Of a stretch of DNA of 64,000 nt, positions 14,716 to 39,406 are shown piece by piece. The notes under the pieces were generated by a model that saw nothing but the letters and a program-made list of their open reading frames with translations, was not told the origin of the DNA and did no database searches. A program made the position numbers and the translations under genes. The stretch covers positions 1-64,000 of the forward strand of contig JARGFK010000007.1 in assembly GCA_029211065.1 (NCBI GenBank), in the 5' to 3' direction. Each line of letters opens with the position of its first letter. Positions within the stretch are counted from its first letter, which is position 1. The stretch comes from Desulfobacterales bacterium (GTDB taxonomy: Bacteria > Desulfobacterota > Desulfobacteria > Desulfobacterales > JARGFK01).

Positions 14716-14739
14716 CGGCCGCTATATCAGCGGCCCTAT

Positions 14740-15192: not shown

Positions 15193-15202
15193 GATTGTAA
15201 AA

Positions 15203-19022: not shown

Positions 19023-19046
19023 GTGTTTTAACCGATCCTGGATACG

Positions 19047-19718: not shown

Positions 19719-19726
19719 ATCATTTT

Positions 19727-20503: not shown

Positions 20504-20800
20504 GGGTAATCTGTCGTCTCGTTCACGCAGCAGGCGTGGTTGTGTAAATCCTAAATCAGGTAGTTGACAATTAAAAACTCTTACAATATAAGAGGGAGAA
20601 AGATCAACAAAATTAAATAAATACCTGTTTTTCTCAAAGAGCGTCTTCTCCTCCTGAGATTTTTTTATTGTTCTTAAAAATAATGCAGCAACTCTCAATG
20701 GGGGTCTGTATCGCGGTCCGTGAGGGTTGTTGTGTTTTTACCGGTAATGAATTTAGGCCGACGGTCTGGGTGAATCTGTTTTCCGGAAAACGGTATTTTT

Positions 20801-23044
20801 ATGAAGATCAGTAAAAAACTCCACCCGTTTATGCTGACGATGCTGGCCGTTATGGCAGGGATCGGTGCGTATTTGTTCGGAATTCCTTTTCTCGACGTGA
20901 TGGAGCTTAAAACCATTGACTTGCGGTTTGAATCCCGGGGAAGCAAAGTTCCCGGTCCGGAGGTAGTGCTGGCAGTCATCGACGAGAAAAGCATCGCCCG
21001 GGAAGGCAAATGGATCTGGCCCCGTTCGAAAATAGCGGAACTTGTCAATCGGCTATCCGCTTACGGTGCAAAAGTGGTGGCTTTTGACATCGGTTTTCTG
21101 GAGCCCGATGAAAATGCCGGCGGGCGGGTCATCGAGCAAATCATTGAAAAAATCAACACAAGCGGCGGGCAAAATCAGGCGATTCAGAATTACTTGAAAA
21201 AATTAAAATCTGAATCGGATAATGACCGCCGCCTGGCGGATGCGATCCGAAACTCAAGCGCAAAGGTGGTGCTGGGATATTTCTTCCAGATGGCCCCCCA
21301 CGGGTCAGACCAGTTGTCGGCGGAAGAATATCATCGGCACCAGGAAAACGTCAAAGGCTCCCGGTACCAATTTGTTCGGTTTAAGTCTGACAATGCCCGC
21401 AAGGTCAAATTGATGGAGCCGGCGTTGCCGCAATCAAACATTACGGCCATTTCAGAGGCAACGGATTATGCCGGTTTTTTTAATATGGAAGCGGATCGGG
21501 ACGGCGTTGTCCGGTGGATTCCAGCGGTTTTTAAATACAAAGACACCCTTTATGCCCCGCTGGCGGTGATGGCCGCCGGGGCTTTTCTGGACAGTCCGCC
21601 GTCCCTTCAAGTGGCTGATTACGGGATTGAATCCTTGCAGGTGGATCGGATTTCCATTCCCGTCGACGAACTTGGGCGCATCATGATAAATTATCGCGGC
21701 GGCGCTAAGACCTATCCGCATATTTCAGTTACCGACATCCTTAACGGAAATGTCGCCGAGGCGGATTTAAGGGATAAAATCGTCATCGTCGGCGCCACGG
21801 CCGTGGGAATTTATGATTTAAGGGTAACGCCTTTTTCCAGTGTTTACCCCGGAGTTGAGATTCACGCCAATATCATCGATAATATCCTGTCAAAAAATTT
21901 TTTGTACCAACCCTCATGGGCGGCTGTGTTCGATATTTTTGGAATCATAGCGACCGGATTAATATTGGGCTTTATTTTGCCGCGTACGGGTGTTTTTACA
22001 GGTATTCTGTCCAGCTTAATGGTCTTTGCCGGGTATATCTTTGTGTGCCAGTTGTTTTTCACGCAAAAGGGATTCATCCTCAACCTGGTATATCCCCTGG
22101 CCGTTCTGTTGATGGTGTATGTCATTATTACGGCATACAAATATTTGGTTGAATCCCGGCAAAAGCGGTTTATTAAAGATGCTTTTTCCACTTATCTGGC
22201 CCCCTCGGTGGTCAAGCAGCTGATCGATTCACCGGAAAAGCTGGTGCTGGGGGGCGAGAAGCGTGTCATTACCGCTTTTTTTTCAGACGTCCAGGGCTTT
22301 ACCAGTATTTCGGAAAAGCTGAGCCCTGAAAAGCTGGTTGAAATTTTAAATGAATTCTTGACGGAGATGACCGATATCATCCTGAAAGATGAAGGAACGG
22401 TGGACAAATTCGAAGGGGATGCCATTATTGCATTTTTTGGCGCGCCCAACGAACTTGAAAATCATGCGGCAACGGCCTGTGCCGCCTCCATCGAAATGCA
22501 AAAAAAGCTGGCCAAGCTCCGGGCAAAGTGGAAGGCGGAAGGAAAGTCCGAACTCATGATGCGGATCGGTCTTTGCAGCGGCGCGGCCGTCGTCGGCAAT
22601 ATGGGCTCCAAAAATCGCATGGATTATACCATGATGGGCGATACGGTGAATACCGCCGCCCGCCTGGAGGGCGTCAACAAGGTCTATGGCACCTACACGC
22701 TGGTCAGTGATACGACTTGTCATGCGGCCGGCCAAAATTTTATATTCAGGGAAATCGACAAAATCAATGTTGTCGGGAAAAAAGAACCGATCACCATTTA
22801 TCAGCTGTTGGGCTATGCGGGCGAAAGCGATGAGCGCATGGATAAGGTGCGCGATTTTTATGCACGCGGTCTTAAAGCCTATCAATCCCGGGAATGGGAA
22901 CAGGCCATCGGTTTTTTTAATGAGGTTTTGAAAATTGCCCCCGAAGACGGCCCCAGTCTGAGCTTGCGGGGTCGCTGTCAGACGTTGCATGAAAATCCTC
23001 CGGGGAAAGACTGGAACGGCGCTTTTGTTATCAAACACAAATAA
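20801..23044 (+). CDS. CHASE2-domain adenylate cyclase with C-terminal TPR
   Basis: A 747-residue class III nucleotide cyclase. After an N-terminal membrane segment comes a periplasmic CHASE2 sensor (about 35-370; LDVMELKTIDLRFESRG, VVLAVIDEKSI, VVAFDIGFLEPDE). Then there are about three membrane segments (370-450) and the catalytic domain (about 480-650). Both metal Asp motifs are present (FFSDVQGFTS; KFEGDAIIAFFGAP), with Lys for adenine, DYTMMGDTVNTAARLEG with the base-specifying Asp, and the N-x3-R motif. It looks fully active as an adenylate cyclase. A TPR-like tail (about 690-725) follows. It heads the plus-strand envelope cluster; such cyclases are often near FecR proteins, as here (34539). 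Confidence 0.92.
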   Translation: MKISKKLHPFMLTMLAVMAGIGAYLFGIPFLDVMELKTIDLRFESRGSKVPGPEVVLAVIDEKSIAREGKWIWPRSKIAELVNRLSAYGAKVVAFDIGFLEPDENAGGRVIEQIIEKINTSGGQNQAIQNYLKKLKSESDNDRRLADAIRNSSAKVVLGYFFQMAPHGSDQLSAEEYHRHQENVKGSRYQFVRFKSDNARKVKLMEPALPQSNITAISEATDYAGFFNMEADRDGVVRWIPAVFKYKDTLYAPLAVMAAGAFLDSPPSLQVADYGIESLQVDRISIPVDELGRIMINYRGGAKTYPHISVTDILNGNVAEADLRDKIVIVGATAVGIYDLRVTPFSSVYPGVEIHANIIDNILSKNFLYQPSWAAVFDIFGIIATGLILGFILPRTGVFTGILSSLMVFAGYIFVCQLFFTQKGFILNLVYPLAVLLMVYVIITAYKYLVESRQKRFIKDAFSTYLAPSVVKQLIDSPEKLVLGGEKRVITAFFSDVQGFTSISEKLSPEKLVEILNEFLTEMTDIILKDEGTVDKFEGDAIIAFFGAPNELENHAATACAASIEMQKKLAKLRAKWKAEGKSELMMRIGLCSGAAVVGNMGSKNRMDYTMMGDTVNTAARLEGVNKVYGTYTLVSDTTCHAAGQNFIFREIDKINVVGKKEPITIYQLLGYAGESDERMDKVRDFYARGLKAYQSREWEQAIGFFNEVLKIAPEDGPSLSLRGRCQTLHENPPGKDWNGAFVIKHK

Positions 23045-23484
23045 AGTAATCCCTGCCGCAATAGAATTTTGTATCTGTTGCACTTTGGTCGTTCAAATTT
23101 TAAACCCAGACTCCGGCGTTCGGGCAAAATTGCCGAAACCTACATTTATTGATGGAAAATTCGCATAAAACGGAGCTGTTTTTGAGATTATTTGTCGCAT
23201 AAAACGAGTTCAATCATGTATTAATTAATGGTGTTTTTAAAGATTTTAAAATGTTTGCAAATAATATATTATAATCAATTCAAACGGATTAACTGGTTTA
23301 AGGACCGGCTCGGTTTTTTGCAGTTCTGCTTTAAAAGTATATTTTTTAAAATACAGGGCTTGGCATGAAATATGAATAAATAATCGATCTGCTCAGGTAG
23401 GGTTAATGCAGAAGGGCCGAAAATATTCATGGGAAATCGATCACCTGGTGGGGGTCATTATCAGCAAAGAGAGAAAATAAGCGG
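23045..23484 (+). promoter_or_regulatory. AT-rich regulatory region before the envelope cluster
   Basis: No gene is seen in these 440 bases. Two direct copies of TCGCATAAAACG occur at 23161-23172 and 23195-23206, 34 bases apart, close to three helical turns. An AT-rich stretch follows with a perfect -10-like TATAAT at 23270-23275, but no good -35 at 16-18 bases. This suggests an activator-dependent promoter feeding the genes from 23485 on. Confidence 0.4.
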
Positions 23485-24558
23485 ATGCTGAAAAAAACAG
23501 TTTTGATCATAACGACGCTGGTTTGCTTTTTCCCGACCGCCTTGCCGGCCGGGGAGCGGGTTACCGCAAAGGGGATGAGTTTTTTTGAGGCCGGACGCGA
23601 GGTCGTTGCCCGCGAGAAGGCCATGGACGAGGCCAAGCGGGCTGCCATTGAGCAGGCTGTCGGTACGATGGTTGAATCCAGGACGGTGGTGGAGGATTTT
23701 CAGGTCGTTAAAGACCAAATCTTCAGCCGCACCACCGGGTATCTCAAGAACCTGAATGTCCTGGAAGAAAAAAAATCGGATCTCGGCACCTATGAGGTGA
23801 CGATTCATGCGGAGGTCGAAATAGCAGACCTGGTAAGCGATCTGGACCGGTTTAACAAAATTATAGGCTGGCAGAAAAACCCCCGGATTGCCATTGTCAT
23901 CGAACCGAAGCCGGCAAATGAATATCTTGCCGCCGCCCAGAAAACGGTCGGCCTGCTGACAACCAAATTAAAGGACGACGGCTTCAAGGTATTTAAGTAT
24001 TCCGGACCAAGTGATATTCAAATGGGATTGCTGGTGAGCCTCAACCTAGAACTGAGCTCGAAAGGGACAAAATTTCAGGACCTCGACCTGACCTTGAACG
24101 AAGTCAGCCTCAGTGCCAATATCTATCGGCCCGGCGACGGCGAAATTGTCGCCGCTGCCAGCGCCGTCAAATCGCTTCCCGGTGAAAACCGGCTGCAGGC
24201 GCTGGACAAAGGCGCCCGGTTCTGTGTGGACAACATCTGGAGGGATCTGCGCCGAAAACTGACGGCAACCTGGGAAAAAGAACTATACAGCGAGCGGGAA
24301 GTCTATTTGATCGTCAAAAATATTTCTTCCCACGCCGGGGCTGAAGAAACAGCCTTTATTTTTAAATCGGACGTCAGCGGCGTTCTGGATAGCGGACTGA
24401 TCACGTATCGCGACCAAACGGCCGAGTTCGGCATAAAGTATCGGGGCTGGCCGGAGCAGCTGTTAAATGAACTGCAGATGTCTTATTTTAAAAATAAATA
24501 TTTTGACGCCGACCTTGAAGCGATCAGCGGGAATAAAATCCTAATCAGAATAAAATAA
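23485..24558 (+). CDS. Exported FlgT-like protein
   Basis: A 357-residue protein with a signal peptide (TVLIITTLVCFFPTALPAG). The N-terminal domain (about 25-115) has the FlgT/LPP20-type helix rich in Ala and Arg (REKAMDEAKRAAIEQAVG, MVESRTVVEDF, VTIHAEVEIADL). This is the alpha-beta domain found in FlgT of polar flagella and in related outer-membrane proteins. The middle resembles a CsgG/FlgT-like binding fold (RIAIVIEPKPANEYLA). The C-terminal part is unassigned. It should be periplasmic or associated with the outer membrane. It is the first of the exported series; no flagellar genes are nearby. Confidence 0.75.
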   Translation: MLKKTVLIITTLVCFFPTALPAGERVTAKGMSFFEAGREVVAREKAMDEAKRAAIEQAVGTMVESRTVVEDFQVVKDQIFSRTTGYLKNLNVLEEKKSDLGTYEVTIHAEVEIADLVSDLDRFNKIIGWQKNPRIAIVIEPKPANEYLAAAQKTVGLLTTKLKDDGFKVFKYSGPSDIQMGLLVSLNLELSSKGTKFQDLDLTLNEVSLSANIYRPGDGEIVAAASAVKSLPGENRLQALDKGARFCVDNIWRDLRRKLTATWEKELYSEREVYLIVKNISSHAGAEETAFIFKSDVSGVLDSGLITYRDQTAEFGIKYRGWPEQLLNELQMSYFKNKYFDADLEAISGNKILIRIK

Positions 24559-24581
24559 TATGTTGCAGCAGGAGGGGAGTT

Positions 24582-26591
24582 ATGTCTCAAAAAAGATATT
24601 TTCGTATCGGAACCGCCCTGTTCATGGCGCTTTTCCTTTACGCCTGTGCCGCGGGTCAAAAACAGTATGATATCGGAACGCAGCTGGGACAGGCCGGCAA
24701 GTACAAGGAAGCCATTGCCTATTTAAAGCAGGCCATTGAACTGGAGCCCGGCAACACCGCCTATCAGAAGGCCCTGGCCGATCTCATCGACAGCCATGTC
24801 AATAAATTTGTCGCCCAGGGGACGCAGGCTTTGAATTCCGAGTCGCCGGTGACATTGACGGCCATTAACCGGGCCATGGACCAACTGCAGCTGGCCAGGG
24901 AAATCGCCCCGGATTCTCCGGCCGTGACAGATCTTTCCGCAAAGATCGAAAGCCAGCAACAAGTTCTGCTGGAAGATATCCAAAAGCTTTATTCCCAGGC
25001 AAAGCAAAATACGGCCGCGCAGGAATGGGTCGAAGCCTATTTCAACCTGCAGCAGATCCAAAACAGATATCCCAATTATGAAGACTCCTTCCAACTCTTA
25101 AATGAAGTCGCCAATAAGGGATCAGAGGCGTTTTATCAAAAGGCCCAAGCCCTATTTGACCGGGAAGATTTTAAGGGGGCCGACGAGTACCTGCGTAAAG
25201 CGCTTTCGTTAAGGGGGGACAGCAGGCCCGCCCGGGAAATGCAGGCGCTTATCCGGGAGCGTAACAACAAGGAATATTTTATCGGCCGGGCACGGGAGGC
25301 GATTACCGCGCAGAAATGGGATCGTGCCGTCGGCGCCTACGAGCGGGCGCTGGAATACGACCCGGAAAACAAAGACCTCCGGCAGCTGATTATACAGGTT
25401 CGCACCAAAGCCGGGGAATTCAATATTCGTAAATCCAAGGAGTTAATGGATCAGGGCTGGCTGCTGCAGGCTTTTGAAGCATACGCGTCGGCCGTCCGCA
25501 ACATCGATGACCCCAAAGACTTTAAGCTGAACAGCCTGCTCAAGGACCTGACGGACCGGGCCGTTTATGCGGCTGAGCAGTTCAAAGAGCAAAACCGTTT
25601 CGGTGCAGCCTGGTTCTGGTTTGAAAAAATAAGAAATGTCGATCCCCAGTACAAGGACATTTTCTTTTTGACCCAGGCGATGGAGGATCAGATCAAGCAG
25701 CGGGTCCAGAAATCCATCGCGGTTTTTGATTTCAACAGCCCGACGGACAATAAAGATGCCGGCGTCATTGTTGCCAACAACCTGATTACAAACTTATTCA
25801 ATAACGCCAGCGGCGACATTAAAATCCTGGAAAGAGAAAATTTAAAATCCATTCTGGAAGAAATGAAACTGGGACAGATCGGCGTGGTTTCGGCAAACTC
25901 GGCCAAGGAGATGGGCCGGGTATACGGAATCGATGTCGCCATTATGGGTAGCGTGTTGTTGTATAAAGTGGATTCCTCCGTTTCCCAGGGAACCAAGTCG
26001 GTCCGTTATCAGATCGGAACCAAGATCGAAGACAACATTGAATACCTGAACTGGAAGGCCAAGCATCCGACCCCGAATGAAAAGCAGCTGGCCGAGGCGC
26101 CGCCGGCTAAAGTCACCGTCCCTGAGATTGCCGAAAAAGATTATCAGGTTTCCAATCACAAAAAAGTCGGATTTGTACAGCTGTCTTTTCGGATTGTGGA
26201 TGTTCGCACCGGCGAGAACATCCAGGTCCGGACCATCGAGAGCAAAAAAACCGTTCAAGATGAAACCAGCGCCGGACTGCCGGAGGCAAAAGTCAAGTTT
26301 GACCCCCTGGATATTCCGACGGATACGGAACTGCTTCAAAAAATGACGGATGAGGTGGTGTCGGAACTGGGAAGGGAAGCCTTGCGGCCGTTGAGCAATC
26401 TTGAGAAAACCTATTTCCAGGAAGGGGAGAAGCTTATCCGGCGCCGCGACAGGCTGGAGGCGGCTGAGAATTTCATAAATGCGGTTTTTGACGAAAGATT
26501 AAAACAGATTCAGGGATCTCCCATGACGCAACAAGCGTTGGAAAACCTGGATGATATTTTTCGGAATTATAAAATAGCCATTGGAGGGTGA
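24582..26591 (+). CDS. TPR lipoprotein with CsgG domain
   Basis: A 669-residue lipoprotein (lipobox LFLYAC, Cys near residue 22). Residues about 25-370 are TPR repeats (AGKYKEAIAYLKQAIELEPG; AQKWDRAVGAYERALEYDPE). Residues about 375-480 match CsgG-like domains (SIAVFDFNSPTDNKDAG; IKILERENLKSILEEMKLGQ; VYGIDVAIMGSVL), and the segment to about 600 continues it (VQLSFRIVDVRTGENI). CsgG forms the curli secretion pore, and related CsgG/TPR proteins act at the outer membrane. AGGAGGGGAG precedes the ATG, so expression may be strong. It lies 23 bases after the FlgT-like gene. Confidence 0.82.
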   Translation: MSQKRYFRIGTALFMALFLYACAAGQKQYDIGTQLGQAGKYKEAIAYLKQAIELEPGNTAYQKALADLIDSHVNKFVAQGTQALNSESPVTLTAINRAMDQLQLAREIAPDSPAVTDLSAKIESQQQVLLEDIQKLYSQAKQNTAAQEWVEAYFNLQQIQNRYPNYEDSFQLLNEVANKGSEAFYQKAQALFDREDFKGADEYLRKALSLRGDSRPAREMQALIRERNNKEYFIGRAREAITAQKWDRAVGAYERALEYDPENKDLRQLIIQVRTKAGEFNIRKSKELMDQGWLLQAFEAYASAVRNIDDPKDFKLNSLLKDLTDRAVYAAEQFKEQNRFGAAWFWFEKIRNVDPQYKDIFFLTQAMEDQIKQRVQKSIAVFDFNSPTDNKDAGVIVANNLITNLFNNASGDIKILERENLKSILEEMKLGQIGVVSANSAKEMGRVYGIDVAIMGSVLLYKVDSSVSQGTKSVRYQIGTKIEDNIEYLNWKAKHPTPNEKQLAEAPPAKVTVPEIAEKDYQVSNHKKVGFVQLSFRIVDVRTGENIQVRTIESKKTVQDETSAGLPEAKVKFDPLDIPTDTELLQKMTDEVVSELGREALRPLSNLEKTYFQEGEKLIRRRDRLEAAENFINAVFDERLKQIQGSPMTQQALENLDDIFRNYKIAIGG

Positions 26592-26594
26592 GCC

Positions 26595-28583
26595 ATGTTC
26601 CGTGTGCGGAACACCTGCATTTTGCTCTTTGCGGTCTGCGGCTTGCTTTTGCTTCCTGCAGCCGCGACCGCTCGCCAAAATGCCCTGGCTATTTTCAACC
26701 TGATTCCCACGAACATAGAAGCGATGGGATATAACGGCGATATTTTATATGCGCTGATCTCCACCCTGGAAAAGGAGAAAAATATCGAACTCATGCCCCG
26801 GCGGGAAATGGAGGAAATTTTGTTTCACGCCGGAATTGTCCAGGGGGACAATCCCGAGATGATTCTTAAGGCCGGAAAGGTTCTGGACACCAATTTCATT
26901 CTGTTCGGCCAGGTGACCAAGGCCGGACAACAAATTCAGGCCCGCCTGAAATTGATGGACATCAAGAAGAATACCGTAGTAAAAACCTGGACGCCCACAT
27001 ATTCGGGACGCGAAGCCATCTTAAGCGGGGTGCCGGAACTTGCCAGGGAACTGAGCGCCAGCGTCTTAAAGAGTCCCCAGACAGCCGCCCCCCCTCCGGC
27101 CGAACGGATCGAGCCCCGGATTGACATCACTAATTTCCGGGCCGAATTCCGGGACGGTAAAGTGGTTTTAAAATGGGAGGTCGATTCAAGCCGACCGGCG
27201 GTTGGGTTCAACCTGTATCGCTCTGAAACCCTTGAGGGGCCCTATCAGTATCATGGCAAGGCTACGGAAAACATGTTTGTCGATGCCAATATCAAAAGGG
27301 GACGGTCCTATTTTTATCGAGTGGGGGTCCTGCTTGCCTCCGGAGAAGAGATAAAGGGGAGACAGGCGGCCCGGATTCAGAGCGTGGGCGAGAAAATACC
27401 GCATCCCCCTTTAATTTTAGAAAGCAGGGGACACATTGGCAGAGCGGTCATAAAATTTGTGCCCTCGCTGCAGAATGAGCAGGAAAAATTTAGTATCAAG
27501 GAATATAAAATTTATCGACAGAAACAGGTGGACGGCAACTGGGAAAATATTTCAACGATCGAGGCCAAGTTGTCCTCCCAGTCCGAACTGGCATTCAGTG
27601 TTGAGGATACCCGGGAGCTTGACGACGGCCGGACTTACATATATGCGGTCGCCAGCGTGGACCAGGAAAAACGAGAAAGCCCGTTGTCGGATACGGTGTC
27701 CATTACCACGGTGGAAAGGCCGGTTTTGACCCTGGTAAAAGACAATCTGCTCCGGCGGACGATTTTTTCCTGGCAGCCGATCCAAAATGTTGACGGTTAT
27801 TATCTATACCGACAAGGGGATGGAAAGGATTGGGAAAAGGTCGGCCGGATCAACGATGCGGCGGCCGTAAAGACAGAGGACACTTCAGAACTTGAAGACG
27901 GGCGGTTTTATCGGTATTACCTGTCGGCCTATGACGCCAAGGGTGAAACCGGCCCATCCAAACTGGTTAAGGCCAAAACAAAAGACTTGCCCCTGCCGCC
28001 GGCAGATCTGCTGGCGGAGAGCGGCCTGGTAAAGGCGGTCCGCCTGAGCTGGACCCCGCTGAAGGATCCGGATGTGGGGGGATATTTTATTTACCGGGGC
28101 ACCCAACCGGAAGCGCTCAAACAAATCGAAAAAATTAATAGCCATACGGTCGGCGCCTATCAGGATAAGGGTGCGATGTTTGTTTCGCTGGAAGATGGGG
28201 CCACTTACCATTACGTGGTCTCCAGTTTCAATCTTTTCGGAGCGGAAGGAAAGCAGACCCCGGCGGTCACAGCCAAAACCAAACCCCGGCCGGTTCCTGT
28301 AAGGGGCCTGTCGGTCAAGGCTGAACAGCAGCAAATCAGCGTGAATTGGGCGCCGAATCCTGAAGGGGACATCCAGTCCTATATCCTTTCCCGCAGCCGC
28401 AATGGCGGGTTTTGGTCTGATATTTCAACCCTGGACGGAGACAAAAACAGTTTTGCCGACAGTGATTTAAGGCCGGAGTCCGAATATCGCTATAGGATAA
28501 TCGCCCAGGATAAGGACGGACTTCAAAGCGATCCGGTTGAAAGCGATGGAATGTTAAGCCCGATTATAAAGCTGAAAAAGTAA
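26595..28583 (+). CDS. Exported protein with CsgG/LpoB-like domain and fibronectin III repeats
   Basis: 662 residues. A signal peptide (CILLFAVCGLLLLPAAATA) is followed by a domain of about 120 residues related to FlgO/CsgG-type nucleotide-binding-like folds (ALAIFNLIPTNIEAMGYNG; FILFGQVTKAGQQIQARLKL). A Pro-rich linker comes next. From about 150 to the end there are roughly five fibronectin type III units, each with a 'W.vp....v.gY.lYR' strand (FNLYRSETLEGPYQYHGKA; GYYLYRQGDGKDWEKVG; GGYFIYRGTQPEALKQI). It is probably an adhesive or scaffold protein of the envelope. The start is 4 bases after the previous stop, and the ribosome site GGAGGG overlaps that stop. Confidence 0.78.
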   Translation: MFRVRNTCILLFAVCGLLLLPAAATARQNALAIFNLIPTNIEAMGYNGDILYALISTLEKEKNIELMPRREMEEILFHAGIVQGDNPEMILKAGKVLDTNFILFGQVTKAGQQIQARLKLMDIKKNTVVKTWTPTYSGREAILSGVPELARELSASVLKSPQTAAPPPAERIEPRIDITNFRAEFRDGKVVLKWEVDSSRPAVGFNLYRSETLEGPYQYHGKATENMFVDANIKRGRSYFYRVGVLLASGEEIKGRQAARIQSVGEKIPHPPLILESRGHIGRAVIKFVPSLQNEQEKFSIKEYKIYRQKQVDGNWENISTIEAKLSSQSELAFSVEDTRELDDGRTYIYAVASVDQEKRESPLSDTVSITTVERPVLTLVKDNLLRRTIFSWQPIQNVDGYYLYRQGDGKDWEKVGRINDAAAVKTEDTSELEDGRFYRYYLSAYDAKGETGPSKLVKAKTKDLPLPPADLLAESGLVKAVRLSWTPLKDPDVGGYFIYRGTQPEALKQIEKINSHTVGAYQDKGAMFVSLEDGATYHYVVSSFNLFGAEGKQTPAVTAKTKPRPVPVRGLSVKAEQQQISVNWAPNPEGDIQSYILSRSRNGGFWSDISTLDGDKNSFADSDLRPESEYRYRIIAQDKDGLQSDPVESDGMLSPIIKLKK

Positions 28584-28584
28584 A

Positions 28585-28600
28585 CCCTGCAACAACAGGG
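28585..28600 (+). repeat. CCCTG..CAGGG hairpin, copy 1
   Basis: CCCTGCAACAACAGGG lies 2 bases after the stop of the FN3 gene: a 5-base stem with a 6-base loop. A near-identical copy is at 30821. It may act in mRNA processing or stability between cluster genes. Confidence 0.5.
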
Positions 28601-28658
28601 GAAACATAGAAGTTGGTTCGGAATGAAAGATGATATGCATTCAACAGGAGTCCATGCC

Positions 28659-30788
28659 ATGTTATCGATCCAAAGAAGGTATTGTTTTATTCTGCTGTTT
28701 ATAGCTGCGGCAATGGCCATGAGCTGCGCGCATGTGTCCACCGATGGAGACACACTGGGTATCGTCGCAACCAGTGAGGCCTTTAAATGGTTTGACGGTG
28801 AATTTGAAAATACCCCTTATTTTTTAAAGCACAAACCCATATCCGTGGCCGTGCTCCCCTTTGCGTATTCAGGCAGTAAGGGCTATTCCATCGAAAACAA
28901 GGAGGAGAGCCCTGCAGATATCGTCCGGCGGGGGTTGTATAACCATGTGTCTTCGCTTCCCTTCAGAGACTTGGAGCTTTTCAGCACCGACCGGCAGCTT
29001 AAAAATGCGGGCTTTACTGATATTCAAAAAATCAACCAGCTCATCAGTGAAAACCCCAAAAAACTGAAAAGCATCCTCGGGGTGGATGCCGTTGTCTCGG
29101 GTCAGGTGACCCATTTCGACCGGATCTTTTTGGGCATCTACTCGCAGGTGGCAGTGGGTTGTGAAGTCAAAATGTGGGATTTAGACAGCGGGAAGCTGTT
29201 GTGGCGTGCAAAACACGTGAGCCGGGCCCACGCCGGCGGCCTTTCGGTCAATCCCATCGGCCTTGCAATGGCGACGGTGGCATCCGTATGGAACCTTCGC
29301 AAAACCGAAATGTTGAGTCAGACCGATGAACTTTTTCGCGAAGTTGTCTCCACCGTCGATGTGCCCCAATCGGCCCTGGCGGTTCAGTCGCCGCCGCCCC
29401 GGATCGATCTGTTTGCAACGATGAATTCGGGAAAAGCTTTTACCCTGGGCGAAAAGGTCGCCTTCAGACTGATCGGAGACCCGAACGGCGCCGCGTATGT
29501 GGATCTGGGGGATTTCAAATCCGCAATCCAGCTGACGCCTGTTTCAGCAGAGATGAAACAGGCCCTGCAGGCGGAAGTTTTAGAGGTGATCAAAAAGAAT
29601 TACAAGGATACCGGTCAGGAGCTGACACCGGCGGTAATTGAGGCGGTCCGACAGGAACTGGGGTCGCGCGAAGTGTATGAAGGCAGTTATACGGTTGAAC
29701 CCCGGGAAGAGGCCTATGGCCTGATGGCAAAAGGGTATTTGGTGAATTCCGCCGGTGTTCAAAAAACGGCGCTGGATGTGGCCCACACCATTGATGTGGA
29801 CAGCCTGCCGCCCAAGGGCGTGGCCGGATTGACAACAGCATCTCTGGACGGCAAAATTATGGTTCGCTGGCACCCCAACAGTGAAAATGATCTGGTGCTT
29901 TATGAGGTCTGGTCCAGCACGACCCCTTTGAGCGGGTATTCCCTCAGCCTTAAAAGTGAAAAAAATGAGGCTTTGGTTCAGGGCCTGGCGAACTTTTCAA
30001 AGATATATATTCAAGTCCGGGCAGTGGACAAGGCCGTCAACAAGGGCCCATTCGAAAAGTATGTGGAAGCCGTTCCCCTGCCGGAGCCCGGCCTCTTTAA
30101 CTTGCCCCAGCCCGGACCGATGTTGGGCGGCCCCATAAATGAAAAAATTTTACTGCTGGCTGAAAAAAGTCCATATACAGTTCAATCCGACCTAAGCGTC
30201 AATCCCAATGGTGCGGTTTACATGGCGCCCGGCGTCACACTGGTGTTTGCCCCGGATACGGCCTTGGTGGTTGCCGGCGGCGATTTGTTTGCTTATGGCA
30301 GCGGCGAAAAGCCGATTCAATTTTCTTCTCAATCCCAAAGCAGGCAGCCGGGGTCCTGGCGCGGCGTGGTTCTCAACGGCGCCAAGCGAACGGATTTGCG
30401 GCATGTGACCATCGAGGGGGCTGTTGTGGGATTGACCATCCGCGACAGTGCGCCGTCCATAACGGCTGCGACGGTACGCGGATCTTCACAGGCCGGTCTT
30501 CATCTCAAAGACAAAGCCAAGCCTAACATTGTGTGCTCATTATTTAAGGACAACGAAGGCCAGGGAGGCGTTGTGATTGAAGGTGAAGGGGTCTCTCCCA
30601 TGATCCGAAACAACGTATTCAAAGGCAACCTGCCATTCCAGGTGCAGAGCTACACGCCTTTGAAGATGAATCTGAGTGAAAATTTCTGGGGTCTTTCCGA
30701 GCCCCGGGCCGAATCGTTTTTAGGTGATGTCGTCTGGCAACCGGCGCTGTCGACTCCCCCGGGGAGCTGCGCTGAAAGGCAGTGGTAA
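28659..30788 (+). CDS. GNA1162-like lipoprotein with FN3 and beta-helix regions
   Basis: 709 residues from MLSIQRRYCF; the ATG at 28659 has AGGAG 8 bases upstream. It is a lipoprotein (AMAMSC). Residues about 25-225 resemble the GNA1162/DUF799 family of outer-membrane-associated lipoproteins (ISVAVLPFAYSGSKGYSIEN; VDAVVSGQVTHFDRIF; KLLWRAKHVS). About 370-460 is an FN3-like unit (ASLDGKIMVRWHPNSENDLV). About 500-690 is a right-handed parallel beta-helix, as in NosD-like proteins (APGVTLVFAPDTALVVAGG; TVRGSSQAGLHLKDKAKPN; EGVSPMIRNNVFKGN). The combination suggests a surface-exposed structural or carbohydrate-contacting part of the cluster's assembly. Confidence 0.75.
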   Translation: MLSIQRRYCFILLFIAAAMAMSCAHVSTDGDTLGIVATSEAFKWFDGEFENTPYFLKHKPISVAVLPFAYSGSKGYSIENKEESPADIVRRGLYNHVSSLPFRDLELFSTDRQLKNAGFTDIQKINQLISENPKKLKSILGVDAVVSGQVTHFDRIFLGIYSQVAVGCEVKMWDLDSGKLLWRAKHVSRAHAGGLSVNPIGLAMATVASVWNLRKTEMLSQTDELFREVVSTVDVPQSALAVQSPPPRIDLFATMNSGKAFTLGEKVAFRLIGDPNGAAYVDLGDFKSAIQLTPVSAEMKQALQAEVLEVIKKNYKDTGQELTPAVIEAVRQELGSREVYEGSYTVEPREEAYGLMAKGYLVNSAGVQKTALDVAHTIDVDSLPPKGVAGLTTASLDGKIMVRWHPNSENDLVLYEVWSSTTPLSGYSLSLKSEKNEALVQGLANFSKIYIQVRAVDKAVNKGPFEKYVEAVPLPEPGLFNLPQPGPMLGGPINEKILLLAEKSPYTVQSDLSVNPNGAVYMAPGVTLVFAPDTALVVAGGDLFAYGSGEKPIQFSSQSQSRQPGSWRGVVLNGAKRTDLRHVTIEGAVVGLTIRDSAPSITAATVRGSSQAGLHLKDKAKPNIVCSLFKDNEGQGGVVIEGEGVSPMIRNNVFKGNLPFQVQSYTPLKMNLSENFWGLSEPRAESFLGDVVWQPALSTPPGSCAERQW

Positions 30789-30820
30789 TATTCGGAATGG
30801 ATCCGAAACGGCAATTATAA

Positions 30821-30836
30821 CCCTGCAGCAACAGGG
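30821..30836 (+). repeat. CCCTG..CAGGG hairpin, copy 2
   Basis: CCCTGCAGCAACAGGG lies 33 bases after the stop at 30788 and differs by one base from the copy at 28585. Flanking AA/TT lengthens the stem to 7 pairs. It directly abuts the inverted-repeat element starting at 30837. Confidence 0.5.
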
Positions 30837-31102
30837 TTAACCCTAACGTTTCATAAACAACATGGCAAAGAGTGGTTATCAATTCGATATTCTAATGAAA
30901 ATACGAAAGCAGGCCTCATTTTTATTTCCAACCTCTGGTGAATTCAAAGGTTGGTGTCGATTTTTGCCATGTTGTTTACCCTTCGGGAAAGCCGGAGAAC
31001 TCCAGATCCTGTGTTGCCAAGGGTTGGCAGTAGGGCTGACTACGGCTTCACCCTTGGCGTCTTGGCTCTGGCGCCCTCCGACTTTTGCAACGATAGGGTT
31101 AA
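30837..31102. mobile_element. MITE-like element with nested inverted repeats
   Basis: TTAACCCTAACGTT (30837-30850) and its near-perfect inverse AACGATAGGGTTAA (31089-31102; 13 of 14) bound a 266-base non-coding stretch. Nested inside is a perfect 16-base inverted repeat, TAAACAACATGGCAAA (30854-30869) and TTTGCCATGTTGTTTA (30963-30978). No transposase is present. A small open frame crossing it has no recognisable product. It fills most of the only long gap inside the envelope cluster. Confidence 0.5.
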
Positions 31103-31133
31103 GACCAGGCCGCAACAGAAAAGGGAGGTATGC

Positions 31134-32309
31134 ATGAAGGTCCGAATAAAAGAAATCGGGCTTGGCTTAATCTTCTTGGGAAGCCTTTTTATCAACCAGC
31201 CATGTCAGGCCCGTGAGCCGGATTTGGAACCGGTGGGTCAATACGGCGCTATAGACTGGATAGGTCAGAAAATCAGAGCCACCGGAATCGGGGCGCCCTC
31301 GGCCGAAGCCGGTCAGAATCCGGCCCAGGCCAGGGCGATGGCCAGGCGTGCGGCCGAAGTGGTTGCCCGGCGGAACCTGCTGGAGGTGATAATGGGGGTA
31401 CGGATCGACTCAAGGACTACCGTGGTCGACTATGCCGTCAAGGATGATACCATTGTCTCTAAGGTTAAAGGTGTGCTGGATAATTCTGTGGTCGAAGGTT
31501 TTCGCTACATGACCGACGGTACCGTTGAAGCAACCGTCAGCATGCCTCTCGGCGGACAGCTGAGAGGGATCCTATTGCAGGTTCCGGGTCGACCGGATAC
31601 GGCGCCGGCGGCACCCCCCCCGGCTGAAGCCGTTGAAAAACGAATGTTTATGCTGGAGGAACGGATTCGGGTGCTGGAAGAAAAATTAAGCGGTTTTAAA
31701 CGGCTCAATTTTGAACAGGAGCAAGCGATTCTGCTTTTCAGACAGCTTCTGGCGGCATGGGGAGACTACCTGTCATCCAGCCCGCAACTCATGCCGGCGG
31801 GTTATGTATCGGACAGCGATCTGGCGGCATTACGAAATGAAATCATTCTGCAGGGAGCTAAAATGGCCGAGCTGTCGAAGAGGCTTGACGACATGTCCAG
31901 CCGGGTAAAAGCGATGGAAACATCTCCAAGACAGCCGGACCCAGCCCCTAAAACCATGGAATCGAGGACGTCTCCTTCTTATACGGGACTGGTGATCGAT
32001 GCCCGCCAAACCAACTTTAAACCGAGCCTTAAGCCCGAAATATTTTTTCAGGGACAGCTCATTTATCCGGGCGATTACGTAAATTTAGAAAAGGCGATTC
32101 GCAACGGCTATGTCCGCTACTATCGCAAAATAGAAGGCGCCCAGCAAAGCACCCAGGCCGGCAATCTGCCCCTTACCATTACCGCTAGGGAAGGCAGCCT
32201 GGGTCCGGGCAGTTTGGAGATCGGTTCGGAAGCGTATGGGACTTTAAGAAAGATGATGCAGACAGCCGATAATTTCATGACAAATTGTAATGTGGTGATT
32301 GTGTTTTAA
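31134..32309 (+). CDS. Exported LPP20-like protein with coiled coil (paralogue 1)
   Basis: 391 residues from ATG 31134, which has AAGGGAGGT just upstream; a longer open frame is not supported. It has a signal peptide (IGLGLIFLGSLFINQPCQA) and an LPP20/FlgP-type domain (about 35-145; ARAMARRAAEVVARRNLLEV, GVRIDSRTTVVDYAVKDD, YMTDGTVEATVSMPLGG). A coiled coil (about 165-265; MLEERIRVLEEKLSG) follows. The C-terminal domain begins YTGLVIDARQTNFKPSLKPE. FlgP, with this domain, builds an outer-membrane-linked ring in polar flagella. The same two domains recur in the next gene. Confidence 0.78.
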   Translation: MKVRIKEIGLGLIFLGSLFINQPCQAREPDLEPVGQYGAIDWIGQKIRATGIGAPSAEAGQNPAQARAMARRAAEVVARRNLLEVIMGVRIDSRTTVVDYAVKDDTIVSKVKGVLDNSVVEGFRYMTDGTVEATVSMPLGGQLRGILLQVPGRPDTAPAAPPPAEAVEKRMFMLEERIRVLEEKLSGFKRLNFEQEQAILLFRQLLAAWGDYLSSSPQLMPAGYVSDSDLAALRNEIILQGAKMAELSKRLDDMSSRVKAMETSPRQPDPAPKTMESRTSPSYTGLVIDARQTNFKPSLKPEIFFQGQLIYPGDYVNLEKAIRNGYVRYYRKIEGAQQSTQAGNLPLTITAREGSLGPGSLEIGSEAYGTLRKMMQTADNFMTNCNVVIVF

Positions 32310-32376
32310 TGTGATATAAATCATATTTACTTGGTATATGACACTGTATAAGTCTGAGCGGATTAGAGGAGGTACT

Positions 32377-33237
32377 ATGAGAAAGTATAAAATGATCGTG
32401 ATTATGTTCTGCCTGGCACTCATGTTTCCTGTTTGGGGAAATGCGCAAGAGTGGCAGGACCTGGTCGAAAAAATGGGGAGCGGCAACATCAATTGGACCA
32501 AGGGACTTGTGGTGGCCAAAGGGATTGGGGCGCCGCCGCAACAATATTACGGCAAACCCCAGGCACGACCGACAGCGTTAAGGGCTGCACGTCTGGATGC
32601 GATGCGAAACATCCTTGAAGTCATCCAGGGCGTGCGGATCGATTCCACAACAACCGTGAAAAATTTTGCAACCGAAAGCGATGTCATTACCTCCAAGGTT
32701 GAAGGCATGGTCCGGGGCGCCAAGGTGGTCAAGCAGGAATATATGTCGGACGGAACCGTGGAGGTTACGCTTGAGATGAGCCTGCATGGCGGTTTTTCCC
32801 AGCTGGTTCTTCCGGCTGAAATCAGACAGGTGGAAACGGTTAAACCGATGACGCCGGGGCCCGCGCAGGAGTCTGCGACGCCTTCAGTTTCTTCCGAAGT
32901 TTATACCGGCCTGGTGATCGATGCGCGCGGACTGAATGCCAGGCCCGCCATGGCGCCGAAAATCATGGACGAGACCGGGCAGGAAGTTTATGGCTCCGCC
33001 TATGTCAGCCGGGAGTTTGCGGTTCAGCAGGGCATGAGTGGCTATGCCAAGGAAATCGACGCCGCGCGGCAGAATCCCAGGGTTACCGATAATCCGCTGA
33101 TGGTCAAAGGGTTAAAAACGGATGGACCCGGCGGCGCTGATGTGGTTATCAGCAATGCCGATGCCGCCAAACTTCGGAGCGCATCAGAAAATCTTTCATT
33201 TCTGAAAAAGTGCCGGGTCATGATTGTGGTGGATTAA
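32377..33237 (+). CDS. Exported LPP20-like protein (paralogue 2)
   Basis: 286 residues from ATG 32377 with AGAGGAGGT upstream. The signal peptide is MIVIMFCLALMFPVWGNAQ. The LPP20/FlgP-like domain reads ALRAARLDAMRNILEVIQGV, RIDSTTTVKNFATESDVIT and YMSDGTVEVTLEMSLHGG. The C-terminal domain starts YTGLVIDARGLNARPAMAPK and ends KKCRVMIVVD. It parallels the preceding gene domain by domain but lacks the coiled-coil insert, so the pair arose by duplication. It is expected in the periplasm or at the outer membrane, perhaps as a co-oligomer. Confidence 0.8.
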   Translation: MRKYKMIVIMFCLALMFPVWGNAQEWQDLVEKMGSGNINWTKGLVVAKGIGAPPQQYYGKPQARPTALRAARLDAMRNILEVIQGVRIDSTTTVKNFATESDVITSKVEGMVRGAKVVKQEYMSDGTVEVTLEMSLHGGFSQLVLPAEIRQVETVKPMTPGPAQESATPSVSSEVYTGLVIDARGLNARPAMAPKIMDETGQEVYGSAYVSREFAVQQGMSGYAKEIDAARQNPRVTDNPLMVKGLKTDGPGGADVVISNADAAKLRSASENLSFLKKCRVMIVVD

Positions 33238-33356
33238 GTCTTCAGTTACGAGAGGCATCCGAATGGATCTCATAATAAATATACCGATTCGCCTGCTGGA
33301 AAAATATTTGCCGAAGCGCAGCAATTGCTTTCCGGCAGCTTGGTCAAGGAGGTTTT

Positions 33357-34520
33357 ATGCTGTATAGAAACAAATTTCTCTACCTGTCGATGGTATTGAT
33401 ATGCCTGCTGGCGTTGGCGGCATGCGGCCCGAAAGCTGATGCGCCCCAGGCAAAACTGGATACTCCGGAACATCATGTCAAGAACGGTAATAAGTTGCTC
33501 GAAAACGGAAAAATCGATGCGGCTTTTTTTGAGTTCAACCGCGCCAAGGAGCTGGATCCGGAATATGCACCCGCCTATATCGGCTTGGGGCTGGTGGCGG
33601 CTTACCGGGGGGATTTTGCAAGTGGAATAAAAACCATGAAGACCGCCCGAAAGTACAGCCGCGATGACGAGCAGAAGCGATCCGTCAGCGTCGGTTTCAT
33701 GCGGGTTTATATTATGGGCGGCGAAAAGATCGACAAAGACTGGCTGGAGCTGGTGGAAGATGAATTCAGCACAGCCAAAAAGAACGGGCCCAACCACCCG
33801 GAGGCTTATTATTACATGGGGGTCGCCTATAAATTATCTTTTGAGTTTGCCAAGGCTTCGGAACAGTTTAAGAAAGTCCTCCAACTCAACAGCGGTTTTA
33901 TCGCCCAAGCGGACCGGGAATACGCGTTGACACAGAAGATCGAAAGGGCCATGCCCGGCTCCATTTATGGGAAAAAGATCGCCATTCTGGAGCAGATAAC
34001 CCGTGCGGATGTTGCCGCTCTTTTTATCGAAGAGCTTAAAATCGATGAGATCTATGCCAAAAAAACACCGAAAAAATTTGATTCGTCTTTTAAAAGTCCG
34101 GATAAAGGGTTCGTCTCCGGACAATATGTTAAGGTGGCGCCGGCCATTGACATCGATGACCACGTCCTGAAAGCCGACATCAACGCGGTGATCGAAATCG
34201 GCATCAAAGGTCTGCAGCCGTTTCCCGACCACACCTACCGGCCCAACCAGATGGTCAGCCGGGCTGAATTCGCCATGATGGTCGAGGATATCCTGATCAA
34301 GATTACCCATTCGGATGCATTGGCCACGCAGTTTATCGGCAGCAAATCACCCTTTCCGGACTTGCGATCTGACTTGCCGTATTTTAATGCCGTAATGACC
34401 TGCACGACTCGGGGCATTATGACCGCAAAGGACATTCGGACCGGAGAGTTCGATCCGATGGGTCTGATATCAGGCGCCGATGCCCTTTTGAGCATTCGGG
34501 CGCTGAAAACACAGCTGTAA
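33357..34520 (+). CDS. TPR lipoprotein with SLH domains
   Basis: A 387-residue lipoprotein (LLALAAC, Cys near 22). N-terminal TPR repeats (about 35-195: VKNGNKLLENGKIDAAFFEF, YYMGVAYKLSFEFAKASEQF) are followed by S-layer-homology segments (about 215-385: ITRADVAALFIEEL; PDHTYRPNQMVSRAEFAMMV; FPDLRSDLPYFNAVM). SLH domains bind cell-wall polymers or peptidoglycan, so the protein may tether the outer membrane to the wall. AAGGAGG precedes the ATG. Confidence 0.85.
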   Translation: MLYRNKFLYLSMVLICLLALAACGPKADAPQAKLDTPEHHVKNGNKLLENGKIDAAFFEFNRAKELDPEYAPAYIGLGLVAAYRGDFASGIKTMKTARKYSRDDEQKRSVSVGFMRVYIMGGEKIDKDWLELVEDEFSTAKKNGPNHPEAYYYMGVAYKLSFEFAKASEQFKKVLQLNSGFIAQADREYALTQKIERAMPGSIYGKKIAILEQITRADVAALFIEELKIDEIYAKKTPKKFDSSFKSPDKGFVSGQYVKVAPAIDIDDHVLKADINAVIEIGIKGLQPFPDHTYRPNQMVSRAEFAMMVEDILIKITHSDALATQFIGSKSPFPDLRSDLPYFNAVMTCTTRGIMTAKDIRTGEFDPMGLISGADALLSIRALKTQL

Positions 34521-34538
34521 CCATCAGGAGTGGAGTCC

Positions 34539-35306
34539 ATGAGGCTTTTTTTTAAAACAGCGCTAGCGTTAATGGTAATCTGGTTGTTTTTGAACCCGTG
34601 TTTGTCACAGGCCCAAAGCAAGGCCGTCAGCATCGAGACCGCGGGCGGCCAAACGGTCGTTACAATGCTGGAGGGGCGCGCGTTTTTAATCAAGGAAGAT
34701 CTGACCCGGATTCGTTCCCTGGCCCGGGGGGATTATTTAAAACAAAACGATCGCGTGCAAACCGAAAAAAAATCCAGGATCGAACTCAAGCTGCCGGATC
34801 AAAGTTATATCCGCTTTGACGAAATGACCATCTTCGTCCTCAAATCGGCATCCTTTGATCAGGAGCAAAAGCAGCGGGATATCGATGTGGCCATGATTTT
34901 AGGTAAATTGTGGGCCAAAGTGGCCAAGTTTTTAAACAAGGAAGACCGCTTTGCGGTTTCGGCCCATACAGCCGTTGCCGGTGTCCGGGGAACCACCTAT
35001 CGGATGAATGTGGACTCGGATAACTCGGCCATGGTCAAGGTGTATGACGGAGAGGTCGAGGTCAGCGGCAGAAGACCGGAAACCGCTGCTGCGCAACCCC
35101 CCAGGCTGGGGGAACCCTCCGTCATCCAGGGTCCGCGGCCGATTCCCGGGCCGCATCCCGTATCCATGGAGCAGTGGACCCGTATCGTCGGCGCCATGCA
35201 GCAGATCAACATCCAACCGGACGGCACCCCGTCGGAACCCTTTCGATTTTCAGCAGAGGCCGACCTGGATGATTGGGTGCGCTGGAATATTGACAGAGAC
35301 CGGTAA
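34539..35306 (+). CDS. FecR-domain exported protein
   Basis: 255 residues from ATG 34539, with AGGAG 8 bases upstream. It has a signal peptide (TALALMVIWLFLNPCLSQA) and a FecR-type domain (about 45-170; LARGDYLKQNDRVQTEKKSR, AVSAHTAVAGVRGTTYRMNV, VKVYDGEVEVSG). A Pro-rich linker and a short C-terminal domain follow. It lacks the sigma-regulator architecture of true FecR. Periplasmic FecR-domain proteins of this type often accompany CHASE2 adenylate cyclases, as at 20801. It is the last gene of the cluster, followed by a strong terminator. Confidence 0.85.
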   Translation: MRLFFKTALALMVIWLFLNPCLSQAQSKAVSIETAGGQTVVTMLEGRAFLIKEDLTRIRSLARGDYLKQNDRVQTEKKSRIELKLPDQSYIRFDEMTIFVLKSASFDQEQKQRDIDVAMILGKLWAKVAKFLNKEDRFAVSAHTAVAGVRGTTYRMNVDSDNSAMVKVYDGEVEVSGRRPETAAAQPPRLGEPSVIQGPRPIPGPHPVSMEQWTRIVGAMQQINIQPDGTPSEPFRFSAEADLDDWVRWNIDRDR

Positions 35307-35338: not shown

Positions 35339-35376
35339 ACTTATGGCCTTTCCTCAGGAAAGGCCATAAGTTTTAT
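35339..35376 (+). terminator. Intrinsic terminator of the envelope cluster
   Basis: A perfect 15-base stem, ACTTATGGCCTTTCC (35339-35353) with GGAAAGGCCATAAGT (35357-35371), a 3-base loop, then TTTTAT. It lies 33 bases after the FecR-domain gene and before the convergent ahcY, so it may serve both directions. Confidence 0.85.
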
Positions 35377-35422: not shown

Positions 35423-36679
35423 TTATGTCCCCATGGTCCATGACGACAGATACTTTTTCTGTTCGGCCGTCAAGTTGTCAATGCTGATCCCCATGGCGGT
35501 GAGTTTTTCCCTGGCGATGGACATATCGATATCCGCCGGCACCGGATACACATCATTGGCGAACTTTGTTTTGCTTTTGACCATGTATTCGATACTGAGG
35601 GCCTGGTTGGCGAAACTCATGTCCATCACGCTGGAAGGGTGGCCTTCGGCAGCCGCCAGGTTGATCAGCCGGCCTTCGCCGAGGACGTTGATGCGACGCC
35701 CGTTTTCAATGACATGCTCTTCCACAAAGGGGCGGATGGTCCGCTTTGATTTGGTAATGGTGGTCAGTCCCTCCAGGTCCAGCTCCACATTGAAATGACC
35801 GGAATTGGCCACGATGGCGCCGTCTTTCATGGTTTTAAAGTGTTCTTTGCGGATGACGTTGATATTTCCCGTCAGGGTGCAGAAAATATCGCCGACTTTG
35901 GCGGCCTGTTTGATGGGCGCCACCGTGAATCCATCCATGACCGCTTCCAGGGCGGCAACCGCGTCGACTTCCGTTATAATCACATTGGCCCCCATGCCCC
36001 GGGCCCGCATGGCCAGTCCGCGGCCGCACCAGCCATACCCGCAGACCACGAAACTGGAACCGGCTATCAGGCGGTTGGTTGCCCGGATGATGCCGTCGAT
36101 GGTGCTTTGGCCGGTGCCGTAGCGGTTGTCGAAGAAGTGCTTGGTGCGGGCGTCGTTTACCGCGATGATGGGGTATTGCAAGACGCCGTCGGCCGCCATG
36201 CTTTTCAGGCGAATGATGCCGGTAGTGGTCTCTTCGGTGCCGCCGCGCACGTTGGCGATCAGCTCGGTCCGTTCGGAATGCAGTACCGATACCAGGTCGG
36301 CGCCGTCGTCCATGGTATAGTGCGGTTTGGTATCGAGGGCGGCGTTGATATGTTGATAATAGGTTTTGTTGTTTTCGCCCTTAATGGCAAAGACGGAAAT
36401 TTTGTCATTCTTAACCAGAGAAGCGGCGGCATCATCCTGGGTGCTCAGGGGATTGGAAGCGCACAGGACGACGCCGGCGCCCCCCGCCTTTAATGTTTGC
36501 ATCAGCGAAGCGGTTTCAGTGGTGACATGCAGGCAGGCGGCGATGCGGATGCCTTTTAATGGTTTTTTCTTGTTAAACCGGTCTTTGATGCGGTTGAGCA
36601 CCGGCATGCTTTGGTTGGCCCAGCCGATTCTGAGCGCGCCTTCTTTTGCGAGTTTTATATCCTTTATATCAAAATTCAT
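35423..36679 (-). CDS. ahcY: Adenosylhomocysteinase
   Basis: A 418-residue S-adenosylhomocysteine hydrolase, splitting SAH into adenosine and homocysteine to complete the methyl cycle. Motifs are [17 protein letters not shown] (substrate site), [35 protein letters not shown] and the NAD-binding [20 protein letters not shown]. It is the short form without the insertion of the E. coli-absent/eukaryote-like longer enzymes and ends SSWTMGT. It follows metK by 40 bases on the same strand, a functionally coherent pair. Confidence 0.96.
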
Positions 36680-36719
36680 GATGAGTATTCCTCTCTTGTT
36701 TTGAAGCCATTAACAACCC

Positions 36720-37879
<1,160 letters not shown>

Positions 37880-37883
<4 letters not shown>

Positions 37884-39395: not shown

Positions 39396-39406
39396 GGGTT
39401 GCTCCT

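Follow-up and report, generated by a model that had tools for sequence, protein, structure and literature searches.

An exported FlgT/LPP20/CsgG-fold gene set linked to an Mla-like operon with a degenerate MlaF in Desulfobacterota and Alteromonadales

What do proteins with the folds of flagellar rings and of the curli pore do when they are encoded outside flagellar and curli loci? This question is raised by a stretch of 64,000 nt from a Desulfobacterales bacterium (assembly GCA_029211065.1, contig JARGFK010000007.1, positions 1–64,000 of the forward strand; the window hereafter), in which nine plus-strand open reading frames (ORFs; g0 to g8) run from a cyclase gene to a terminator-like hairpin. 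A preliminary description, made from the sequence alone, had proposed an outer-membrane ring or pore under the control of cyclic AMP (cAMP). The gene set is real and conserved, and its interpretation is revised here in part: it is modular rather than a single operon, and the feature should be widened to take in a MlaE-MlaF-MlaD operon on the minus strand (17916–20698), which starts 102 bp upstream of g0, is oriented divergently to it, and had been missed. The presence of this Mla/MCE operon, with its dead ATPase, makes an MCE-linked envelope machine a likelier function than a generic ring or pore. The reading favoured here, tentatively, is a trans-envelope MCE-type lipid conduit or tether, the outer-membrane end of which would be made of FlgT-, LPP20- and CsgG-fold proteins.

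The features of the locus are the following (aa, amino acids):

17916–19022, minus strand: mlaD, MlaD-like MCE protein of the long type, 368 aa (Pfam MlaD 50.0 bits, cut-off 25.1)
19047–19784, minus strand: mlaF, homologue of the MlaF-like ABC ATPase with all catalytic motifs degenerate, a pseudo-ATPase (phmmer matches in the PDB; motif alignment)
19727–20698, minus strand: mlaE, MlaE-like permease of a divergent, system-associated type, start codon uncertain (Pfam MlaE 156 bits)
20801–23044, plus strand: g0, CHASE2 receptor with class III nucleotide cyclase (Pfam CHASE2 216.8 bits, Guanylate_cyc 84.7 bits)
23485–24558, plus strand: g1, FlgT-like exported protein, core gene 1 (FlgT_N matches of orthologues; predicted structure)
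24582–26591, plus strand: g2, TPR and CsgG-fold lipoprotein, core gene 2 (Pfam TPR; CsgG 40.6, cut-off 20.8)
26595–28583, plus strand: g3, exported protein with FN3 repeats and a small, weakly CsgG-like N-terminal domain, core gene 3 (Pfam fn3)
28623–30788, plus strand: g4, GNA1162-like lipoprotein with a C-terminal beta-helix-like region (Pfam GNA1162-like 34.7, cut-off 25.9)
31131–32309, plus strand: g5, exported LPP20-family-like protein (N-terminal similarity to g6)
32338–33237, plus strand: g6, exported LPP20-domain protein (Pfam LPP20 31.1, cut-off 25.9)
33357–34520, plus strand: g7, TPR and SLH lipoprotein, lipobox LAAC (Pfam TPR; SLH 35.1, cut-off 20.8)
34530–35306, plus strand: g8, exported FecR-domain protein (Pfam FecR 64.7, cut-off 24.0)
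35339–35371, plus strand: intrinsic-terminator-like hairpin, 15 pairs and a T tail, the strongest hairpin of the region

All nine plus-strand ORFs (20801–35306) are present as first described, and a signal sequence or lipobox was found in eight of the nine products, in agreement with the eight exported proteins reported. The start of g5 is most likely at 31131, corrected from 30951. The lipoprotein cysteine of g2 (Cys22) is invariant in 53 homologues, and g6 has an ordinary signal sequence with no lipobox by pattern. One operon for all nine genes was unsupported: a single transcript is unproven because of the gaps between g0 and g1 (440 nt) and between g4 and g5 (342 nt), and the modules relocate independently. 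An RNA element in either gap was rejected, as no Rfam family was found across 16.7–38 kb, which covers both.

Conservation and predicted folds of the core genes

A full-length g2 orthologue (32–67% identity) was found in 12 of 58 order-level genomes, one per different family, besides the genome of origin. A contig scan yielded 79 g2 loci, in Desulfobacterota (including Syntrophia) and in Alteromonadales (Alteromonas, Catenovulum, Colwellia, Pseudoalteromonas, Glaciecola and Paraglaciecola). In a set of 75 g2 loci, g1 lies directly upstream of g2 in 62 of the 70 that were testable and g3 directly downstream in 63 of 70, mostly at a spacing of tens of bases; the triplet g1-g2-g3 is therefore regarded as the core. 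Gene order, the check proposed in the preliminary description, is kept in relatives of two phyla.

The core is patchily distributed: across the phylum it was found in 23 of 296 genomes, and among 296 genomes from the order to which one Alteromonas carrier belongs, the query genome itself was the single one to have it. In a quick g2 tree, the Alteromonadales form one group (support 99) nested among Desulfobacterota under a midpoint root, and on the simplest inference the core would therefore have passed once between the phyla. A plasmid-borne or recently mobile set was rejected, as g2 had no match among 72,556 plasmids. In Desulfothermus okinawensis (L098), g3 seems largely intact, and g1 and g2 are split into several short frames by decay or sequencing errors.

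The FlgT-like identity of g1 is supported by its relatives and by structure prediction. Its own FlgT_N score (17.4) is under the Pfam cut-off (28.8), and FlgT_N was matched by 45 of the 52 g1 orthologues (best E 3e-12). The AlphaFold2 (AF2) model of g1 (predicted local distance difference test, pLDDT, 81.7) had FlgT (3w1e, E 6e-10) as its best Foldseek match, followed by 8z5n_0, a chain of the flagellar LPHT ring. The template modelling (TM) scores were low, so that the domains either sit differently with respect to each other or cannot be placed with certainty. The middle domain matched the LptE/PelC/CsgG/HpaA group (Z 10–12.6), and the g1 profile matched a chain of an FlgP-type lipoprotein (9hmf, E 5e-8).

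The AF2 model of g2 (pLDDT 88.7) comprises a TPR superhelix followed by a domain at residues 375–607, which matched FlgT (Z 14.4), PelC (14.2), GNA1162 (12.9) and CsgG (about 10–11). Of the two CsgG/FlgO-like proteins first reported, g2 thus has its CsgG domain both by Pfam and by fold, while the FlgO identity of g3 was rejected: no FlgO family occurred among the matches of 38 g3 orthologues or of g2. All 38 contain fn3, and five have a weak N-terminal CsgG match. The curli pore CsgG and the PelC/PelBC ring share the fold of the g2 domain, and PelB and PelC combine TPR with a ring, g2 being likewise a TPR lipoprotein. Unlike CsgG, which has two membrane hairpins, the g2 model has a single long hairpin (residues 452–540) that is mostly polar in 53 sequences. 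Membrane crossing is therefore not established, and the membrane pore proposed earlier finds no support in this hairpin.

These folds are also the ground for a different explanation, in which the core is a stand-alone outer-membrane ring or export channel of PelC/CsgG type for the secretion or surface display of a polymer or of the FN3 protein, and the Mla-like operon is an unrelated neighbour that general co-regulation of envelope genes has kept close. The matches of the g2 domain to PelC, CsgG and GNA1162 (Z 10–14) agree with it, the combination of TPR with a PelC-like fold recalls Pel export, and several genomes carry the core without MlaEFD. However, the loci that were read had no recognisable gene for a polysaccharide synthase or a curli subunit in the vicinity of the core, no curli or Pel genes were seen beside it, and none of the partners CsgA, CsgB, CsgE and CsgF was recognised beside it (no genome-wide search was made). 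The polar hairpin also speaks against a channel, as does the meeting of MlaEFD with the core in three Alteromonadales arrangements and, independently, with g4-g6 in Desulfobacterota (see below), and we consider this explanation rather unlikely.

The resemblance of g1 to FlgT, together with the LPP20 domain of g6, which occurs in FlgP-type proteins, could also indicate a flagellar accessory set (FlgO/FlgP/FlgT) moved away from its flagellar locus. This was rejected as highly improbable, since neither FlgH nor flagellin was found in the genome of origin (100% complete), FlgH is absent in 8 of the 13 core carriers of the order, and the core showed no positive association with FlgH among the 58 genomes (Fisher p 0.21, negative trend). 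No flagellar genes were recognised in the core loci that were read. Homologues that always lie next to flagellar loci had been named as a result that would count against a new system; they were not beside such loci and occur in flagella-free genomes, so the finding survives. Compared with the FlgO/FlgP/FlgT rings of Vibrio-type polar flagella and the FlgP basal disk of Campylobacter and Helicobacter, the likeness consists of the FlgT fold of g1 with its FlgT_N/FlgP-like N-terminal domain and of the LPP20 domain of g6, whereas here there is no flagellum in the genome of origin or in most order carriers, no FlgO match, and TPR, FN3 and SLH parts are added.

The Mla-like operon and its MlaF

Of the parts of an Mla/MCE transporter, the operon has an MlaE permease and an MlaD with an MCE domain, but not an MlaF with intact ATPase motifs. 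The window MlaF had no Pfam hit, ABC_tran included, and still aligns with ABC ATPases in a phmmer search of the PDB (best PsdA, E 2.5e-7). At the Walker A position it has TDSIDDAALF instead of GxxGxGK[ST]; the Q-loop glutamine, the LSGGQ signature and the switch histidine are missing as well, and the Walker B/catalytic glutamate is lost (VLVLERPE). The same loss was seen in every aligned Desulfobacterota copy. The core-clustered MlaF of Alteromonadales is recognisably MlaF (best PDB match an A. baumannii MlaF entry, E 1e-20), and all copies have a Walker A of TGVLDGG[ST]S, without the lysine, and LNDVQ in place of LSGGQ. The divergent MlaF of a further carrier (G066) is motif-less, and in two Syntrophia carriers, where a divergent MlaEFD is encoded at another place in the genome, MlaF is truncated to 140–154 aa. 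With its ATPase motifs gone, the complex may act as a sensor or a tether, or movement may be passive or driven from outside. In the Syntrophia loci L193 and L194, a divergent MlaE and MlaD are accompanied by an MlaF remnant of 140–154 aa without the N-terminal nucleotide-binding part, near ORFs of 494–616 aa of unknown function.

The MlaD of the window consists of an MCE domain and a long helical tail ending in LIRxNLPPEP...DAGLR. Its homologues are 308–390 aa long, and this short C-terminal motif is conserved in Desulfobacterota. The three-gene MlaE-MlaF-MlaD operon and the long helical MlaD resemble those of Veillonella parvula, in which MlaD has an average length of 374 residues and was proposed as a trans-envelope bridge (PMC10665443). 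In contrast to Veillonella, MlaF is catalytically dead here by its motifs, genes for LPP20, GNA1162-like, FlgT-like and CsgG-fold proteins are linked to the operon, inspection of MlaD by eye gave no sign of a C-terminal beta-barrel, and a separate housekeeping MlaE (243 bits) is present elsewhere in the genome of origin.

At least one ordinary MlaE (about 230–285 bits) was also found in each of the 13 genomes that have a divergent MlaE (14 searched), indicating that the divergent set is an addition to the housekeeping Mla system. In quick trees the system-associated MlaE grouped apart from housekeeping MlaE (Shimodaira-Hasegawa-like approximate likelihood ratio test, SH-aLRT, 99–100), with long branches. 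In the window, mlaD is followed in the same orientation, after a gap of 22 nt, by a gene for a membrane GGDEF protein (17078–17893, minus strand), which is not common to the relatives of the operon.

No description of the cluster or of an MCE system with a dead MlaF was found in open-access text.

Linkage of the operon, the core and the modules

Linkage to MlaE was counted within the fetched flanks (up to 10 kb). Of the 22 long Alteromonadales loci, 16 had MlaE near the core, in three arrangements: downstream and co-directional in Alteromonas, upstream and co-directional in Catenovulum, and divergent in Colwellia and Pseudoalteromonas. It is also near the core in the window and in three other Desulfobacterota loci (L044, L045 and L048). 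By our estimate, with about two MlaE genes per 4-Mb genome, an MlaE would lie within 10 kb by chance in roughly 1% of loci. The association of the core with MlaEFD is strong but not universal. The Alteromonadales cluster also contains LPP20 proteins, two TPR proteins and an SLT lytic transglycosylase (20 of 22 loci; Pfam 76 bits).

As a separate line of evidence, the dead-MlaF operon of order-level relatives is flanked divergently by homologues of g4-g5-g6 (L153, L157), by g6 with g7 or g8 (L144, L146, L152, L158), by g6 (L148) or by g0 (L143, L156), including genomes in which the core is absent or on another contig. Fisher tests on the 58 genomes, uncorrected for kinship, gave co-occurrence of dead MlaF with g6 (p 0.002), of the core with g6 (p 0.01) and, weakly, of the core with dead MlaF (p 0.04). 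In one locus without a g2 core (L143, genome G023), MlaE-deadMlaF-MlaD, a CHASE2 cyclase, FecR, two small CsgG-like proteins and two or three FlgT-like proteins are encoded by neighbouring genes, and g6 follows at a distance of about 14 kb; the MlaF match first obtained in this genome runs through stop codons close to its ends.

The genes downstream of the core behave as modules, g4-g5 and g6-g7-g8, that join in varied orders. The g4-g5 pair follows the core in the window and precedes it in L033 and L037. In genomes without the core, g6 (with g7 or g8) is often found by itself beside ahcY-metK. In the window, ahcY and metK lie just past g8 (35423–37883, minus strand), and the pair is kept beside g6 (with g7 or g8) in many core-less genomes of the order (loci L196, L199, L200, L201 and L144). 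In many Syntrophia loci (L102, L111, L121 and others), core-g4-g6 is placed between truA/rfbD-like genes and mutL-miaA, in some of them with a gene for a TPR-SLH lipoprotein after miaA.

The families first assigned to these genes were recovered in most cases. Pfam confirmed the CHASE2 cyclase (g0), the TPR-SLH lipoprotein (g7) and the FecR-domain protein (g8). The GNA1162-like part of g4 stood, while its Beta_helix score (21.0) was below the cut-off (25.9). Of the two LPP20-like proteins, g6 was identified by Pfam; g5 had no Pfam LPP20 match, and its N-terminal part resembles g6 (39–45% over about 125–135 aa in related loci and in the genome of origin).

The proposed control by cAMP was unsupported beyond gene presence, as g0 occurs in four and g8 in five of the 79 other loci. 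In other genomes g0 recurrently adjoins MlaE. The two belong to the families of CHASE2-cyclase/FecR sensory pairs and are immediate neighbours in L143 and L147, but here they are optional, and they are absent from the Alteromonadales clusters. A protein with a cyclic-nucleotide-binding domain, encoded 3.6 kb past g8 (38919–39692, minus strand), is a possible receptor for the product of the cyclase. The cyclase domain also matches the cyclase models of Pycsar, as any class III cyclase would, which could point to a cyclic-nucleotide defence system. This was rejected and its probability is negligible: PADLOC matched the generic cyclase domain alone and found no Pycsar effector beside it, no effector model matches the other genes, the cyclase is present in a handful of loci only, and g2 is on none of the 72,556 plasmids.

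Elsewhere in the window, three co-directional plus-strand ORFs (14146–16738) encode, in this order, a product of 189 aa, a TPR protein of 150 aa and a product of 511 aa; the first and the last had no Pfam match at E 0.001.

A possible MCE-linked envelope machine

MlaE-MlaD complexes hold lipid, and members of the LPP20, GNA1162-like, FlgT-like and CsgG folds form outer-membrane rings. As no barrel is evident in MlaD, an outer-membrane partner is likely to be needed, and the linked proteins with these folds are good candidates because such folds form rings. What the analysis shows is that the genes are linked and conserved, that their products have export signals and the predicted folds described above, and that the ATPase motifs are lost; that the products may form one complex, with lipid as its cargo, and how movement would be directed and regulated, we infer from this.

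In the proposed machine, the first module (g1-g2-g3) would most likely be a ring or scaffold anchored in the outer membrane and built from the CsgG/PelC/FlgT fold. The second would be an inner-membrane MCE complex (MlaE, long MlaD and dead MlaF) together with the LPP20-family and GNA1162-like proteins g4-g6, and in Alteromonadales its lytic transglycosylase could open the peptidoglycan. Where both modules are present, a hexamer of the long MlaD would span the periplasm and dock on the LPP20/CsgG/FlgT ring. Such an assembly would maintain the outer membrane, either as a membrane tether or as a lipid conduit that is ATP-independent or draws its power from outside. Its anchor in the cell wall would be g7, the TPR-SLH lipoprotein, with the CHASE2-cyclase/FecR pair as an optional sensor. 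A transglycosylase would suit passage through the wall, and an SLH lipoprotein attachment to it. In Helicobacter pylori, a lipoprotein of a flagellar outer-membrane ring, encoded with flgP, protects the outer-membrane barrier (PMC11756786), a precedent in favour of a role in outer-membrane upkeep.

Several observations weigh against such a machine. Linkage of the core to MlaE was found in none of the 18 Syntrophia loci and in three of the 36 other Desulfobacterota loci, and no close divergent MlaE was present in the core carriers G003, G024, G032, G037 and G055, two Glaciecola and Paraglaciecola; MlaEFD is not obligate for the core to persist. Dead-MlaF operons were also found without any core gene, and the g2 hairpin, being mostly polar, does not establish a pore. 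A group uniting the system-associated and housekeeping MlaE of Alteromonadales was not rejected (approximately unbiased test, AU, p 0.11). A single origin of the system-associated MlaE is accordingly not secure, and in view of the long branches and the AU result, the ATPase may have been lost more than once.

The same parts could instead be a passive structure by which the outer membrane is braced to the peptidoglycan, in the manner of the flagellar H/T and basal-disk rings; MlaEFD would then be a site of repair or a lipid sensor and not a transporter. A wall-anchored ring would agree with the lytic transglycosylase, with the SLH lipoprotein and with the presence of parts of FlgT, FlgP and LPP20 type, and the barrier-protecting ring lipoprotein of the H. 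pylori flgP operon (PMC11756786) is compatible with this explanation too. However, the genome of origin has no rotating machine that needs bracing, and the dedicated MlaE and MlaD with their conserved domains argue for lipid handling; a passive scaffold of this kind appears unlikely.

For the MCE-type conduit or tether preferred here, the most specific form would be an ATP-independent lipid conduit, with MlaE-MlaD and a pseudo-ATPase, a long MCE tunnel on a FlgT/LPP20/CsgG ring, an own peptidoglycan-cutting enzyme in Alteromonadales, and a core transferred between Desulfobacterota and Alteromonadales. In this full form the proposal is possible but rather doubtful.

How lipids cross the periplasm, and what powers their movement, is still debated for MCE systems. 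A natural MlaEFD that has kept its permease and MCE protein and lost the ATPase in several lineages would offer a direct test of transport without ATP hydrolysis, and culturable hosts (Alteromonas, Catenovulum, Pseudoalteromonas denitrificans and Paraglaciecola) allow knock-outs. Moreover, ring proteins of the flagellar FlgT/LPP20 type exist outside flagella, which bears on the origin of the flagellar outer rings. If the proposal is true, a conduit on a ring of FlgT/LPP20/CsgG-fold proteins would represent a class of envelope machine not described so far.

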